DNA from: Selenobaculum gibii
GTDB taxonomy: Bacteria > Bacillota > Negativicutes > ICN-92133
Direction: 5' to 3'
Assembly: GCF_030273445.1 (NCBI RefSeq)
Contig: NZ_CP120678.1
Coordinates: 1,899,501 to 1,963,500 of the forward strand
DNA: 64,000 nt
Within the stretch, counting starts at the first letter, position 1. Each line of letters starts with the position of its first letter. Below the pieces are notes generated by a model that saw only the letters and a program-made list of their open reading frames with translations, searched no databases and was not told the DNA's origin. Both the position numbers and the translations under genes were made by a program. Positions 1,755 to 62,787 of this stretch are shown one piece after another.

Positions 1755-2445
1755 GCATGCAAAAAAAATCCACCAGCTTAGCTGGTGGTATTTCATATGA
1801 CGCCTGAAAGGCTACTTTACCAACAACATCAACAGGCGCATATGACGTCCTACAGCCGCATAAGTTTATTACTTGCTACCCGTGAACGGGTTATAGAACT
1901 CCTTAAAACTTAATTGATCATATATTTTATCTTCATGTAACTGATTCGCTATGTACTCTACTATTTTTTATCGTTTTTTCCTGCTGTATCTACATAAAAT
2001 CCTCTACACCAAAATCTTCTGTTTCCATATTTGTATTTAAGATTTGCATATCTATCAAATATCATTAGGCTGCTTTTTCCTTTTAGATATCCTACAAATG
2101 CTGATACACTCATTTTCGGTGGTATTTCTACTAGCATATGTATATGATCTGAACAAACTTCGGCTCGTACTTCCATTCACATAATTCTCTTAATATCTGA
2201 GCGATTTCTTTACGCTTCTCTCCATAAAATATTTTCCTTCTATATTTTGGTGCAAATACTATATGATATTTACATCTCCATTTTGTATGTGCTAGGCTAT
2301 TAGTGTCATCCTTTTGAATAGCCTCCTTTTGATTTTAGTTGCGGCTAATCAGACCTCTTCTAAATTTATCAAAAGGAGTTTTACTATTCATAGCTAAAGC
2401 TTTTCTGAACCACTGGCACAGCCAGTGGTTTTCTTTATACAAAAA
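1755..2445 (-). mobile_element. Degenerate IS200/IS605-family insertion sequence
   Basis: A stretch of about 690 bp, the usual length of IS200-type elements, contains a broken Y1 transposase gene and is bounded by subterminal hairpins instead of terminal inverted repeats. One hairpin (1770-1788, CCACCAGC/GCTGGTGG) lies beyond the 3' end of the transposase and the other (2408-2430, AACCACTGG/CCAGTGGTT) beyond its 5' end. There is no accessory TnpB gene. Exact ends are not certain because this family makes no target duplication. The element lies between the chemoreceptor gene and the nuoN terminator. Confidence 0.8.
1869..2319 (-). pseudogene. tnpA: IS200/IS605-type TnpA transposase, frameshifted
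   Basis: Three frames together rebuild a Y1 HUH single-strand transposase. The N-terminus reads DTNSLAHTKWRCKYHIVF in one frame up to LCEWK. A small out-of-frame deletion follows, and the next frame (2161-1961) carries the HUH pair in CSDHIHMLVEIPPKMSV and runs to FWCRGFYVDTAGKND. An A-run near 1966-1971 has six A where seven would keep the frame. The C-terminus, IVEYIANQLHEDKIYDQLSF to the TAA at 1871, is therefore in a third frame. The catalytic tyrosine expected in VEYIANQ is cut off from the HUH motif. No ATG begins the gene; ATT at 2319 follows a GGAGG. The copy should be inactive. Confidence 0.85.
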
Positions 2446-2480
2446 GACTGATTCAACATAAAAGTTTGAATCAGTCTTTA
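2441..2480 (-). terminator. Intrinsic terminator after nuoN
   Basis: Perfect inverted repeat AAAGACTGATTCAA (2443-2456) and TTGAATCAGTCTTT (2466-2479). In the minus direction it is followed by TTTTT. It lies about 80 bp past the nuoN stop and so ends the nuo operon. Confidence 0.85.
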
Positions 2481-2559
2481 AAATTATAATATAAATCTCT
2501 GGATAGCAATTTTTAAGATTCAGTTGGCCTTAAAACTTCATATGAAACAAGCGCGCCGT

Positions 2560-3987
2560 TTATCTCATAAATGTTTGCGATGCAATGTTCGTAATCAATG
2601 CAACTTTTTCTGGGCAAATCCCAATTAAAATTGTTGCAATTGAGCTAATTAATACTACCGCTCGAATTGCGCCAGAAATTACAATTTTGGTTTCATCTTC
2701 ATCGTATTCCATATACATTGCTTTTGCTACCATCAAATAATAATATACAGAGATCATCGACATGATAAAGCCGACAAATGCCAACCATAAATAGCCTTGT
2801 TCAACAACAGCAGTAAATAAATACAATTTACCAACAAAACCAGCTGTTGGTGGAATTCCAGCCATAGAGAGTAGCGAAATCGTCATCACAGCTGCTAAAA
2901 TTGGAGCTGTCCTCGATAACCCCTTAATATCTTTCGTATCTGTGCCACCTTTATATTTATCAATCACAGCAAGCACAGCAAAAGCACCTACATTCGCAAA
3001 TACATATAAAAGCGCATAAAACATTACCGCTTTCATTCCTGCCACATCAGCGGCTACGATACCGACCATCATATAGCCTGCTTGTGCAATCGAAGAATAT
3101 GCTAGCATTCTTTTTAAATTTTCTTGACGAATTGCCATAATATTACCAAATATCATACAAATTGCTGCAAAAATAGAGAGTATCGGTAACCAATAGTCAG
3201 CAGTAATCGGAAATGCCGTATATAAAATACGCATAAATACTGCTAAGCCTGCGGCTTTAGATCCCATTGCTAAAAGCGCTGTTATAGGAGTTGGTGCTCC
3301 TTGATAAATATCAGGCGCCCACATATGAAATGGAATGACTGATAATTTAAAGAAGAATCCAATCATCACCATTGTAATCCCTGCAAGTCCTGCTGCATAA
3401 AACAAATGATAATTCATACAAATGCCTGCAAAAGTAATCTGACTTGTCACACCATACACCAAACTGATTCCATATAACATCACTGCTGTAGATGCAGAAC
3501 CTATCAATAAATATTTTACTCCGGCTTCACTTGATAAACGATTTCCTAACTTATAGCCAACTAAAATATAAAATGAAATCGTCATTAATTCTAACCCAAC
3601 AAACATTGTTAAGAAATCATTCGCTGATGCCATTACCATCATACCTAATAAAGCAAACAGTAAAATAACATAATATTCACCACGATATTTTGGCAATGTC
3701 TCTACATAATCTAAGGAAAATAAAATGGTAAATCCTACAGATAAAATAAAGAGTTGTTTAAAGAATATCGCAAAGTTATCTAAGATAAATAAATTTTGAT
3801 AAAAATATTCACTATGTCCTAAATGATACTGAGTGAACGTATGAAGAAATAAACCAAGCAGACCAAAAATCGCAATATAACCAATACTGCGTCGTGTCTC
3901 TTTTGCCGGCAGAATTAAATCAACTGCCATTAAAACTAATGCTAATACTAAAACTAGCAGCTCTGTGCTGATTATCGAAAAATTCAT
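2560..3987 (-). CDS. nuoN: NADH-quinone oxidoreductase-type subunit N
   Basis: Antiporter-like membrane subunit of respiratory complex I, one of the three large proton-pumping subunits (L, M, N). The 475-residue protein is a run of about 14 hydrophobic helices with charged residues buried in helices, and segments typical of the family such as GLELMTISFYILVGYKLG and KLSVIPFHMWAPDIYQGAPT (the Mrp-antiporter domain). I placed the start at ATG 3987, which overlaps the nuoM stop as ATGA and has GGAGG nine bases upstream. A GTG two codons earlier is too close to that site. It is the last gene of the operon and is followed by a strong terminator. Confidence 0.97.
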   Translation of the reverse strand: MNFSIISTELLVLVLALVLMAVDLILPAKETRRSIGYIAIFGLLGLFLHTFTQYHLGHSEYFYQNLFILDNFAIFFKQLFILSVGFTILFSLDYVETLPKYRGEYYVILLFALLGMMVMASANDFLTMFVGLELMTISFYILVGYKLGNRLSSEAGVKYLLIGSASTAVMLYGISLVYGVTSQITFAGICMNYHLFYAAGLAGITMVMIGFFFKLSVIPFHMWAPDIYQGAPTPITALLAMGSKAAGLAVFMRILYTAFPITADYWLPILSIFAAICMIFGNIMAIRQENLKRMLAYSSIAQAGYMMVGIVAADVAGMKAVMFYALLYVFANVGAFAVLAVIDKYKGGTDTKDIKGLSRTAPILAAVMTISLLSMAGIPPTAGFVGKLYLFTAVVEQGYLWLAFVGFIMSMISVYYYLMVAKAMYMEYDEDETKIVISGAIRAVVLISSIATILIGICPEKVALITNIASQTFMR

Positions 3988-12643: not shown

Positions 12644-12690
12644 AAAATGCAGCAAAAAGATTGAGAAATCTAATTTACTGCATTTTATTT
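12644..12690. terminator. Bidirectional terminator beside repeat element A
   Basis: AAATGCAG (12645-12652) pairs with CTGCATTT (12678-12685), and AGATT/AATCT forms an inner stem. T-rich tails occur on both strands. Read on the minus strand it would end transcripts from the gene at 12814-13326 after passing through the repeat element. Confidence 0.65.
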
Positions 12691-12812
12691 TTATCCGATG
12701 GCTAACGTGCTCTAATACCCCTGCTTCTTTAAGTGGAAGTAAAGACCTTGTAAGCCCCTGGATTACGCGTCTGATTTCAGTGTGAGTTAAAACGCCTACT
12801 GAAACAGCCTTG
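12688..12812 (+). repeat. Unidentified intergenic element, copy A
   Basis: Begins TTTATCCGATGGCTAA (12690-12705), identical to the start of copy B at 62254. It ends with a hairpin, TTTCAGT (12775-12781) and ACTGAAA (12798-12804). Between them the segment CTGGATTACG resembles CTGGATACG in copy C. It fills the gap between a terminator and the stop codon of the next minus-strand gene. Function and preferred strand are unknown. Confidence 0.6.
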
Positions 12813-12813
12813 T

Positions 12814-13326
12814 TTATGCTGCTTTATCTGATTTCTTCTCCAATTTTGCTTTGCCCGTTAAAAGCTGATTAAACTCTTTATAAAATTGTTTCGTTGCATC
12901 TTCATATAATTTAGCTGATTGTGCTCCACTCACACTAACACGCTCACTATAAATTAACTTTTGAGTAGTAACTTCATACACTTCAAAAAATATATGTGTA
13001 TTTCGTTGTCTAACAACAGTTGGTACCATATAGACCTCTGCGTATTTCGCTAATGAGCTTAATTGGTCTTGATTGATTTTTCCCGTATAATCTCTTATCC
13101 CACTAATTTGCAAATTTACCTTATCAGGTCTAGTCAAAAAAGCGTGATAAAGAGCATCATTCGTTAAGGAATCCTTTTCAGTTGAATTATTTGCTTCACA
13201 AACAATCAATCTTCTAATGCTTGTAAAATCGAAATCTGAATCCGTTAGAATATTCTGCGCCCCTGCGACTTGTCCGTTAGATATGAATGTCCCTACCATA
13301 AATAACACTAATGCTAACTTTTTCAA
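12814..13326 (-). CDS. Small exported protein of unknown function
   Basis: I do not recognise the family. The protein of about 170 residues starts with a classic signal peptide (KKLALVLFMVGTFIS, likely cleaved after VAGA) and has no lipobox cysteine. The mature part is mixed alpha/beta with RLIVCEANNSTEKDSL near its start and a lysine-rich end (GKAKLEKKSDKAA). The frame opens at TTG 13335, directly against GGGG. TTG 13326, nine bases from that site, is the better start. It stands alone between the HAD phosphatase and repeat element A. It is probably periplasmic or cell-envelope located. Confidence 0.75.
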   Translation of the reverse strand: MKKLALVLFMVGTFISNGQVAGAQNILTDSDFDFTSIRRLIVCEANNSTEKDSLTNDALYHAFLTRPDKVNLQISGIRDYTGKINQDQLSSLAKYAEVYMVPTVVRQRNTHIFFEVYEVTTQKLIYSERVSVSGAQSAKLYEDATKQFYKEFNQLLTGKAKLEKKSDKAA

Positions 13327-13391
13327 AACACTCAACCCCGTTTCCTATATTTAACTATACATGACAAATTATACAACAAAATAGAAAAATT

Positions 13392-34323: not shown

Positions 34324-34435
34324 TTTAATTTCCTCCTTATCGCCCTTTTCTAGAACGGACATTTCTCCGCGCAAGTTCCCTTATCAATGATAAGCAATCT
34401 TCCACGTCATCGCATTTGGGGTACCAAAAGCCTTT

Positions 34436-48404: not shown

Positions 48405-48571
48405 ACACCTCCTCTCATTAAATAACGCGAAAAGACCTCCGGCAGTAAATACCGGAGGTCGTAAATGGCAATGTAAGCCACACTTAAATCTCCGACCTCG
48501 GCAGGAGGACTACTCCATTATGCATACGCACCTGCTATCTACAGCCTTAAAAATTATTAAGTTGTAAGACT
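48405..48571 (-). ncRNA. L10 ribosomal protein leader with attenuator
   Basis: The untranslated region before rplJ contains the segment characteristic of L10 leaders (GGAGTAGTCCTCCTGCCGAG at 48513-48494). It is followed by an intrinsic terminator, GACCTCCGG/CCGGAGGTC (48434-48460) and TTTT, ahead of the ribosome site. In Firmicutes this RNA binds the L10-L12 complex and controls rplJL by premature termination. Confidence 0.85.
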
Positions 48572-51830: not shown

Positions 51831-51857
51831 TTCTTAACATTTTACTAAAAATGTTAA
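51831..51857. other. Hairpin next to repeat element C
   Basis: CTTAACATTTT and AAATGTTAAG form a stem with no clean T-run. It may be part of element C or a weak terminator. Confidence 0.35.
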
Positions 51858-51863
51858 GGTAAT

Positions 51864-52007
51864 ACTTGATCCAGGTAAAGTTTTCACTCTATCTGAACCT
51901 TAGTTGATCGTATCCAGAAACTTAGCCGCTCGCCTATGCCTGTGGGTATAACTAACTCCTCCTTATAAAGGTTAAAAGTCTTAGCGCAGCTTAGCTATCA
52001 GATAAAA
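51864..52007 (-). repeat. Unidentified intergenic element, copy C (longest)
   Basis: In the minus direction it begins TTTTATCTGATAGCTAAG (52007-51990), a variant of the start of copies A and B. It ends with a hairpin-forming stretch (GGTTCAGATAG with CTTTACCTGGATC) and CAAGT, matching copy B's end. The middle, about 90 bases, has paired segments such as CCTT/AAGG and a GCGAGCGGCTAAG stretch. It lies just past the pfp terminator. Confidence 0.6.
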
Positions 52008-52038
52008 GATGAAGAAAAATCAATTTTCTTCATCTTTC
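52004..52038 (-). terminator. Intrinsic terminator after pfp
   Basis: AGATGAAGAAAA (52007-52018) and TTTTCTTCATCT (52024-52035), a perfect 12-bp stem. On the minus strand TTTTATC follows and merges into repeat element C. Confidence 0.85.
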
Positions 52039-52044
52039 CATTCT

Positions 52045-53301
52045 CTATTTTACAAGATATTCGTATTTTTCTTTAAAGCGTTCAGGTGTTAAGTTAAATT
52101 CTTTTGCTAAAATTTTCAATTTATCCTCATTTATAAAATCATCTTTTACTAAACGAATCATATATTCTGTAGCAATAAAATAATTTAATGAATGAATATC
52201 CACATATCTTACTTTTGTTTTTCCTGTATTTTCATCGCGAATTTCTTCATATTTCAAAGGAACAATTTTATTATTTTGAATACTTACAACTGCATCCGTT
52301 CCACCGTCCATAAGGAAACTTACTGCTGCATAGCCAAGCGATCGCGTATAATCAATATCAAAAGAAATCGGTGCAGCGCAACGAAGCTCATAACCAATTT
52401 CCTTATCTATAATCGTTACGTTCAAACCAATCTTTTTCAATTCTATTATCACTAATTTTTTTAATACATCACCAAAATCAAGTTCCGAATAGCGAAGATG
52501 ACCATGATCATCAAAACAAGCTGCGCCTAGCACACTAAAATCTTCTGGGGCAATCCTGTCGATAACACCTTCTGCGATAACCGCTACACCATAGTTACGA
52601 CCAGTTGCATTCCTTTTTACAATCGAACCAACAAGTAAATCAACTACATGTTGCAGCCTAACTTCCTTTGTTTTAAACTCTTCAGGAATGATTGTAATAA
52701 TCGCTCCAGCACTTTTTCCCATGCCGAGCGCTAAATGTCCAGCTGTACGCCCCATAGCAATTGCAAAATACCAACGATTATTTGTCGTACGTGCATCTTC
52801 CATCAAATTTTCTAACTCTGTAGTGCCTAATGCTCTAGCTGTTTCAAAACCAAACGTACTAATCCCTTCTGGCAAAGGTAAATCATTGTCTATTGTTTTA
52901 GGTACATGAACGGAATTGATTACTTTTCCACATTTTCGTGCATATTCTGAAACCTTTGAAGCACTGAAAGCAGTATCATCCCCACCTATTGTGACCATAT
53001 ACGTTACACCAAGTTCAAGCAAAGTATCTACCACTCTAGCTAAATCATCTTCATTCTTTGTTGGGTTGTATCTAGACATATGTAGAATACAGCCACCATT
53101 TAAATGAATGCGACTTACCATATCATAATTCAAAACTACATAGTTTTTCTTTCCTTGTGCTAGATGTGAAAAACCATCATACATTCCCAATACTTCAATG
53201 CCTTGTTTATGCGCTTCCATCGTAACTGCACTAATTACACTATTCATTCCTGGTGCTGGACCACCGCCGCAAATAATCGCCAATCTTTTCTTGTTTGTCA
53301 T
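52045..53301 (-). CDS. pfp: 6-phosphofructokinase, pyrophosphate-dependent type
   Basis: Phosphorylates fructose 6-phosphate in glycolysis. Two positions that set the phosphoryl donor point to pyrophosphate. The phosphate loop reads GGDDT where ATP enzymes have GGDGS, and the catalytic motif reads PKTIDND where ATP enzymes have PGTIDND. The donor-site start is CGGGPAPGMN and the substrate Met-Gly-Arg is in AMGRTAGH. 418 residues from ATG 53301 (GGGAGGAA upstream) is longer than the 320-residue ATP form. With pyrophosphate the step is reversible and could serve gluconeogenesis too. Monocistronic. Confidence 0.9.
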   Translation of the reverse strand: MTNKKRLAIICGGGPAPGMNSVISAVTMEAHKQGIEVLGMYDGFSHLAQGKKNYVVLNYDMVSRIHLNGGCILHMSRYNPTKNEDDLARVVDTLLELGVTYMVTIGGDDTAFSASKVSEYARKCGKVINSVHVPKTIDNDLPLPEGISTFGFETARALGTTELENLMEDARTTNNRWYFAIAMGRTAGHLALGMGKSAGAIITIIPEEFKTKEVRLQHVVDLLVGSIVKRNATGRNYGVAVIAEGVIDRIAPEDFSVLGAACFDDHGHLRYSELDFGDVLKKLVIIELKKIGLNVTIIDKEIGYELRCAAPISFDIDYTRSLGYAAVSFLMDGGTDAVVSIQNNKIVPLKYEEIRDENTGKTKVRYVDIHSLNYFIATEYMIRLVKDDFINEDKLKILAKEFNLTPERFKEKYEYLVK

Positions 53302-53490
53302 TCCATTTCCTCCCAAAATTTTTATCCTTGCTATCAGCTAAAAATTCACTTACAGATAGACAACGTTAAAAGAATATTCTTTAAAACTTTATATTATGAA
53401 TATCTTGGTAAATAATTCCGGATAAAAGTTTTATCATTTATGTATTCGTCAAAATTACTATTTCATCCTTCATACAATACAAAACATACC
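53302..53490. other. Non-coding gap upstream of pfp
   Basis: No reading frame or convincing promoter was found. AT-rich throughout. The pfp promoter must lie here or the gene must be read from sigH past the terminator at 53491. Confidence 0.5.
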
Positions 53491-60060: not shown

Positions 60061-60262
60061 AAAAAAAGACCGCCATCTCATACAGAGACGGTGGTCCGCG
60101 GTTCCACTCTGTTTAGACAAATAAAAATAAATGTCTCACTTACACAATAACGGTTGTTGCCGATTTGACCTACTATCTTCAGCCAAATAACTCCGAGGTG
60201 CATTTGGGTGATCGCCCCTTAGCATTGCTTCCAGCTTTGCAACGCCTCTCTGTCAAGATTCG
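60061..60262 (-). promoter_or_regulatory. T-box riboswitch (probably cysteine) ahead of cysE-cysS
   Basis: The T-box sequence AGAGTGGAACCGCGG is exact at 60110-60096. The terminator GACCACCGTCTC/GAGATGGCGGTC (60096-60068) ends in TTTTTTT; the T-box overlaps its 5' arm, as the antiterminator does in this class. Stem I lies upstream to about 60262. A TGC triplet (60202-60200) followed by A, in AAATGCACCTC, is the best specifier candidate, matching cysteine and the downstream genes. Confidence 0.93.
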
Positions 60263-60331
60263 ATTCACTTACTCTCCTCATCATTGTTTTTACCTTGTAT
60301 TCTATGATATACATCGTAAAATAATGCTTAC

Positions 60332-62253: not shown

Positions 62254-62306
62254 TTTATCCGATGGCTAAGATTTAGGCGAAGTGAACACTCCACCTAAAT
62301 CAAGTC
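62254..62306 (+). repeat. Unidentified intergenic element, copy B (short)
   Basis: TTTATCCGATGGCTAA (62254-62269) is followed at once by a hairpin, GATTTAGG (62270-62277) and CCTAAATC (62294-62301), then AAGT. It lacks the middle segment of copies A and C. It stands between the stop of ispF and the next minus-strand gene, in the opposite orientation to both. Confidence 0.6.
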
Positions 62307-62310
62307 TACT

Positions 62311-62787
62311 TTATACTTTTTTAATTCCAACAACAGCGTATGAAGCAATTCCTTCTTGCATACCCGCAAAACCTAGCCCTTCTGTTGTCGTCGCTTTTAC
62401 ATTCACACCATCTAAATCAATTTCCAAAACTTCGGAAATATTTTTATTCATTTGTAGAATAAATCCCGCTAATTTTGGTTTTTGTGCAACAATTGTTGCA
62501 TCGATATTATTTACCATATACCCTTTTTTCATTAATAAATTTTTTACATGTTTTAGTAAAACCAAACTAGAAATTCCTTTATATTTTTCATCTGTATCGG
62601 GGAAATGACGTCCTATATCGCCGAGTGCAGCGGCACCAAGCAACGCATCTGAAATTGCATGTAATAAAACATCTGCATCCGAATGTCCTAATAACCCTAA
62701 TGTATGTGGTATTTCTACGCCTCCTAAAATCAATTTACGTCCTTCGACTAATTTATGTACATCATAGCCCATTCCAAATCTAATCAT
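62311..62787 (-). CDS. ispF: 2-C-methyl-D-erythritol 2,4-cyclodiphosphate synthase
   Basis: Non-mevalonate isoprenoid pathway enzyme, 158 residues. The metal-binding [11 protein letters not shown] (Asp and His) and [20 protein letters not shown] are intact, as is the end [17 protein letters not shown]. Overlaps ispD by four bases; the pair makes consecutive-stage enzymes of one pathway. Confidence 0.97.

Follow-up and report, generated by a model that had tools for sequence, protein, structure and literature searches.

Background

The movement of BOX, bcr1 and other small folded repeats has long been an open question. In Streptococcus pneumoniae, BOX elements are composite: two outer modules enclose an inner module that is repeated in tandem a variable number of times (boxA-boxBn-boxC), for total lengths of 67-637 bp (PMC3049150). 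They are folded and intergenic and occur in more than 100 copies per genome; terminal inverted repeats and target duplications have been reported for them, and their mobiliser is not established (PMC3049150). The bcr1 repeats are interspersed, mobile-like sequences of 100-400 bp whose movement is tied to TTTAT motifs, and they are described as restricted to the Bacillus cereus group, where some plasmid copies have been reported (PMC6542083). By comparison, IS200/IS605 miniature elements and REP/RAYT systems have subterminal hairpins, lack inverted repeats, and insert in a polar manner 3' of a short target (PMC6006769, PMC2817692).

Here we analyze an intergenic sequence, element C, in a 64-kb window (the whole stretch of Selenobaculum gibii DNA under study). 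Very probably, element C is one decayed copy of a miniature, non-autonomous mobile repeat of the BOX/bcr1 kind. The repeat family is, provisionally, apparently undescribed, and a search of the open-licence literature with its conserved 12-mer as query returned no relevant match.

Copies in the window

A covariance model (R1) was built from 34 copies of the family, including C and excluding the two further window copies A and B. Element C occupies positions 51855-52006 on the minus strand, reading from 52006 to 51855, and scores 105 bits in cmsearch with this model (E = 1.8e-21, C being among the 34 model copies). Independently of the model, BLAST matches C to other copies in the S. gibii genome with E-values down to 7.6e-23. 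Based on alignment to R1 and folding, C comprises hairpin H1 at 51909-52006 (minus strand; left arm TTTATCTGATAGCTAAG.., right arm ..GCTAAGTTTCTGGATACG) and hairpin H2 at 51864-51905 (minus strand; AACTAAGGTTCAG..AGT GAAA ACT..CTGGATCAAGT). Its left TTTAT (52002-52006, minus strand), taken as the insertion target from the sequence, the end profile of 179 left flanks and the Pelosinus empty sites described below, is the end of an upstream terminator T-run. The sequence places C directly after, and on the T-run of, a terminator-like hairpin (52004-52034, minus strand; GATGAAGAAAA-TTGA-TTTTTCTTCATC followed by TTTT) that belongs to a phosphofructokinase gene (52045-53316; PF00365). The right end of C (51855-51863, minus strand) is decayed against the right-end profile, reading ATTACCTTA vs the consensus CTACTTTAT.

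Element A (12690-12817, plus strand) is an intact copy that R1 finds from outside its training set at E = 1e-13, and its terminal TTTAT includes the TAA stop of a minus-strand ORF at 12814-13335. Element B (62254-62314, plus strand; E = 1.9e-5, likewise outside the model) is an internal-deletion derivative in which the left end is joined to H2, with its terminal TTTAT including the TAA codon that ends ispF (62311-62787, minus strand; PF02542). Its structure is consistent with recombination or deletion between the two GRCTAA repeats, and the mirror case, H1 without H2, is seen at another locus (L067). C and B belong to subfamily I, with right end CAAGTCTACTTTAT (decayed in C), and A to subfamily II, ending in ACTGAAACAGCCTTGTTTAT; the S. 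gibii genome has both. The three related intergenic copies that the earlier note had reported are thus real, with small changes of coordinates, and all three are present in the family; the count of three was too low, since R1 gives 70 matches genome-wide and a fourth, badly decayed copy lies in the window. This remnant, element D (about 2417-2561, plus strand; E = 3.6e-5), resembles the family over about its last 70 bases only and adjoins a broken IS200-type transposase gene. The gene itself (1967-2283, minus strand) consists of Y1_Tnp fragments in two frames, with terminal hairpins flanking it.

The start sequence shared by the copies, TTTTATCYGATRGCTAA, is matched five times when up to three mismatches are allowed, and three of these matches have no more than one mismatch; 0.94 are expected by chance, and five matches were reached in 1 of 100 shuffles. 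C on its own does not fold better than its shuffles (z = -1.4), being too decayed; it is old and probably inert.

Fold and conservation

Each unit consists of two imperfect hairpins, H1 and H2, bounded on both sides by TTTAT, with the working plan TTTAT / CCGAT-H1-GGATAAG-H2-TTC-TTTAT /. The common form is 132 nt long, and its H1 part reads TTTATCC-GAT-GACTAA-CCGCTC..GAGCGG-CTAAGTC-CCT-GGATAAG, followed by H2 (GACTAAGATTCAG..CTGAATCAAGTC) and then TTCTTTAT; both hairpins share the foot GACTAA..AAGTC. This form has a folding energy of -58.8 kcal/mol, vs a mean of -26.3 for shuffled sequences (z = -9.3). In the alignment of 34 sequences, 30 of the 46 pairs change on both sides, a number reached by none of 500 shuffles, and pairing amounts to 88% in register vs 29-47% once the partner is slid by 1-3 columns. 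When 99 sequences are fitted to the model, two-sided change is found in 41 of the 46 pairs. The conserved structure that the earlier note had suspected is therefore borne out by covariation. Family lengths range from about 61 to 638 bp, and no copy carries or has room for a gene. In four loci of three genomes (L319, L321, L332 and L070; G067, G033 and G007), H2 is preceded not by H1 but by another hairpin, CCTTCGCACAGCCTGTAA..AACAGGCTGTAGCTCGAAG. As judged from such sequences, modules seem to be exchanged.

A strongly conserved fold might also be expected if the family had been dispersed to the advantage of the host, as a functional RNA, a site for an RNA-binding protein or a regulatory element, and this explanation could draw on the orientation of the S. 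gibii copies (antisense in 23 cases vs sense in 8, relative to co-directional flanking genes) and on the several copies that abut stop codons and are therefore predicted to be transcribed as 3' tails. We consider it very improbable. G-U pairs are about as frequent as C-A pairs on the modelled strand (168 vs 143, no clear excess), unlike the usual trace of selection on one RNA strand; neighbouring genes do not recur, and orthologous sites may be empty. The placement at stop codons is a consequence of the target, as TTTAT becomes ATAAA when read from the opposite strand. Among the possibilities offered by the earlier note, the non-autonomous repeat is supported, whereas a small RNA and an RNA-binding-protein site gain no support, given the unrelated sites, the lack of a recurrent neighbour, the precise insertion at TTTAT, copies 98-100% identical to each other and the G-U count above. 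Effects of copies on neighbouring transcripts, as for BOX, are possible.

Rfam gives no match at the gathering score at C, A or B, in agreement with the earlier view that no known RNA family fits; permissive thresholds yield only sub-threshold, chance-level matches in C and two other copies (L058 and L025), many of them to eukaryotic miRNAs on long hairpins. Rfam RNAs elsewhere in the window, all on the minus strand and in expected positions, are a T-box (60081-60293), an L10 leader (48419-48562) and an S10-Clostridia leader (34337-34418).

Family size and distribution

The 70 matches of R1 (E <= 0.01) in the S. gibii genome, a single contig of 2.68 Mb, include some places matched on both strands and correspond to about 60-65 separate places, while BLAST with the family consensus gives 47 matches. 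Two other complete or near-complete genomes have 61 and 67 model matches, and among 61 genomes from the same class, taken to be Negativicutes, 22 contain relatives of the family. A pattern scan of named genomes found at least 120 loci, with Desulfosporosinus, Syntrophomonas, Sporomusa, Pelosinus, Pectinatus and Massilibacillus among the matches listed. The covariance model proposed earlier as a check thus finds further copies in this genome and in relatives, with covariation present and without an Rfam match, so that none of the outcomes held to speak against the family (no further copies, no covariation in homologues, a clear Rfam hit) was seen.

Viral contigs, plasmids and phages gave no match to the family, and blastn of the consensus against 72,556 plasmids returned nothing; the family therefore looks chromosomal. 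No recurrent proteins were found beside the copies, only common families (ABC ATPases, LysR and MCPs, named by eye). In S. gibii, most copies share 70-92% identity with the query or consensus, and they look old. In one Pelosinus genome (G005), eight copies of 235 bp are 98-100% identical, as are five copies of 132 bp, and this near-identity indicates recent spread there.

Ends and insertion site

In profiles of 179 left and 171 right flanks, conservation starts sharply at the left TTTAT and ends after the right TTTAT, with flat flanks on both sides; as the right flanks were anchored on TTTA, the information on that side comes from the final T and the bases beyond it. Two clean empty sites were identified by comparison between Pelosinus genomes. 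The first, opposite the occupied locus L082 (vs L259 and L262, from two genomes), reads CACAAATG-TTTAT-TTACGG, and the second, opposite L079 (vs L261), reads CTAAG-TTTAT-GCGAC, each with a single TTTAT. A third locus (L058 vs L260) has an imprecise empty site, with an indel at the junction. As the occupied site has two TTTAT and the empty site one, the element inserts at TTTAT. The flanks of a further Pelosinus copy (L060, in G056 and relatives) belong to an unrelated high-copy repeat of the ACCACAAAGACACAAAGGACACAAAG.. type, which is present dozens of times in each Pelosinus genome and has one copy of the TTTAT-bounded family sitting inside it.

One TTTAT in empty sites and two in occupied sites would also be produced by an ordinary MITE whose double-strand transposase duplicates a TTTAT target. 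Such duplication predicts that deviant ends match. Among 111 copies, deviation from TTTAT is confined to the left end in 24 and to the right end in 6, and in 1 the two ends deviate in the same way (McNemar p = 0.0014); put differently, 24 of the 25 copies with a deviating left end still have TTTAT on the right, and the one exception, L106, with TTAAT at both ends, is the copy that fits a MITE. Further, no terminal inverted repeats are seen by eye at the ends TTTATCCGATGAC and GTCTTCTTTAT. This alternative is accordingly quite unlikely. The pattern of a variable left and a largely constant right TTTAT is best read as a right TTTAT borne by the element and a left TTTAT belonging to the target, and it speaks against simple target duplication. 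With ATAAA as the complement of the target, copies frequently come to lie on the TAA stops of genes pointing towards them, leaving the gene unbroken, as A and B do.

Cassette arrays

Copies in two Pelosinus genomes (G005 and G044) form an end-to-end length ladder of 132, about 235, about 336, 538 and 638 bp, whose steps correspond to 0, 1, 2, 4 or 5 tandem units of 101 bp in the loop of H1; the arrays of five and of four units were confirmed. Each unit folds as two hairpins. At two pairs of orthologous sites (L059/L285 and L078/L284), one genome is without the unit and the other has one. The long S. gibii copies have half a unit at a nearby position. This half cassette, hairpin AAGCGATTCACACAAAATC..GATTTTGGTTCTCTGCTT, is also seen beside tRNA genes at L073 (G004), and it stands alone in other genomes.

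From these sequences we infer that the 101-bp unit may be a second repeat inserted into the first. In another genome (G146), a 128-bp relative of the cassette is repeated four times in tandem at positions ~1110-1640 of L320, ending in CTTAT and accompanied by neither H1 nor H2, and this standalone array is a sign that the cassette is a mobile repeat of its own.

Proposed mechanism

Taken together, the data are best explained by an element that inserts 3' of a TTTAT target, so that an occupied site has TTTAT on both sides, the left one supplied by the target and the right one by the element; the loop of H1 can hold, in tandem, copies of a second structured unit (about 101 bp). Since all copies are gene-free, movement needs an enzyme acting in trans, which would probably recognise the hairpins in folded single strands of DNA. 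The GGATAA that separates the two hairpins is able to pair with the TTATCC of the left end and, via ATAA, with the TTAT of the right end, and may serve as a guide. Both the hairpins and the polar ends point to single-strand transposition, to which we give slightly less than even chances. The family, its fold, its ends, the clean insertion at TTTAT, the recent spread, the modular length ladder and the absence of genes are directly supported, with the insertions deduced from comparison of species and the clean empty sites numbering two.

One specific form of this mechanism, which concerns how the element moves and not whether it does, is that it is a miniature derived from IS200/IS605 and moved on single-stranded DNA by a Y1 HUH transposase (TnpA or RAYT-like). 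Its subterminal hairpins, the lack of terminal inverted repeats, the element-borne right TTTAT with a target-borne left one, and the possible guide match are all features that such an origin could account for. Y1_Tnp is present in all 22 carrier genomes vs 25 of 39 non-carriers (Fisher p = 0.001), but genome size and family are confounding factors here, carriers being mostly larger genomes, and we give the association little weight. Element ends were found at 0 of 32 Y1 loci, the sole matches being those of remnant D beside the broken IS200 gene. Further, the Pelosinus genome with the recent copies (G005) has one Y1 gene, with an unrelated flank (GGGGACGGTTC..), and Desulfosporosinus sp. PR has dozens of copies and only a sub-threshold Y1 fragment, with no intact Y1 gene. 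No consistent replication-strand orientation bias was seen in a tally that assumed the origin position. We therefore regard this origin as possible but somewhat doubtful.

A Y1 transposase as the carrier of the element is not supported, with no Y1 locus having element ends, and no mobilising enzyme was found among the candidates examined. The S. gibii genome has two single-copy genes for RAYT-like Y1 proteins of about 250-260 amino acids (at L022 and L023), the latter flanked by inverted repeats of the GGGGACGTTCCTTTTTTGTC type. When left ends were paired with right ends across two Pelosinus genomes, no autonomous copy emerged, as no pair fell between 640 bp and 5 kb; a single pair of 5.3 kb was provisionally judged to consist of unrelated ends, and no other pair exceeded 640 bp.

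A more far-reaching proposal, which we consider unlikely, is that of a BOX-like modular element spread across several classes of Bacillota and moved by a type of transposase not yet tied to such repeats, which would read two hairpins and a built-in guide, with the inner 101-bp unit being a mobile element in its own right, stacked in tandem within the outer one.

Comparison with known systems

The occurrence of the family in culturable Pelosinus and Sporomusa, with clean empty sites, near-identical recent copies, a defined target and quantised lengths, allows a direct search for the mobilising enzyme. The family also provides a searchable repeat for the annotation of many Negativicutes genomes, in which copies overlap stop codons and terminators.

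Like IS200/IS605 miniatures, the family inserts 3' of a short target, apparently without target duplication, and its left TTTAT is variable and its right one constant. However, no Y1-encoding autonomous element sharing the ends of the family was found, and the GTAG-type tag beside the hairpin of many REPs is not seen in the family. With bcr1, compared by description only, it shares a TTTAT at each end, as found in the end profiles and empty sites, whereas its hosts lie outside the B. cereus group, its consensus has no blastn match in the plasmid collection, some bcr1 copies being reported from plasmids, and modular cassette arrays are not described for bcr1 in PMC6542083. BOX has other hosts, and in contrast to BOX the family shows no inverted repeats by eye and has asymmetric ends (unmatched in 24 of 25 copies with a deviating left end). 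Nevertheless, the plan of the family matches that of BOX: it is composite and folded, needs no genes of its own for movement, spans about 61-638 bp vs 67-637 bp for BOX, and in the Pelosinus copies has outer modules that flank 0 to n tandem inner modules.
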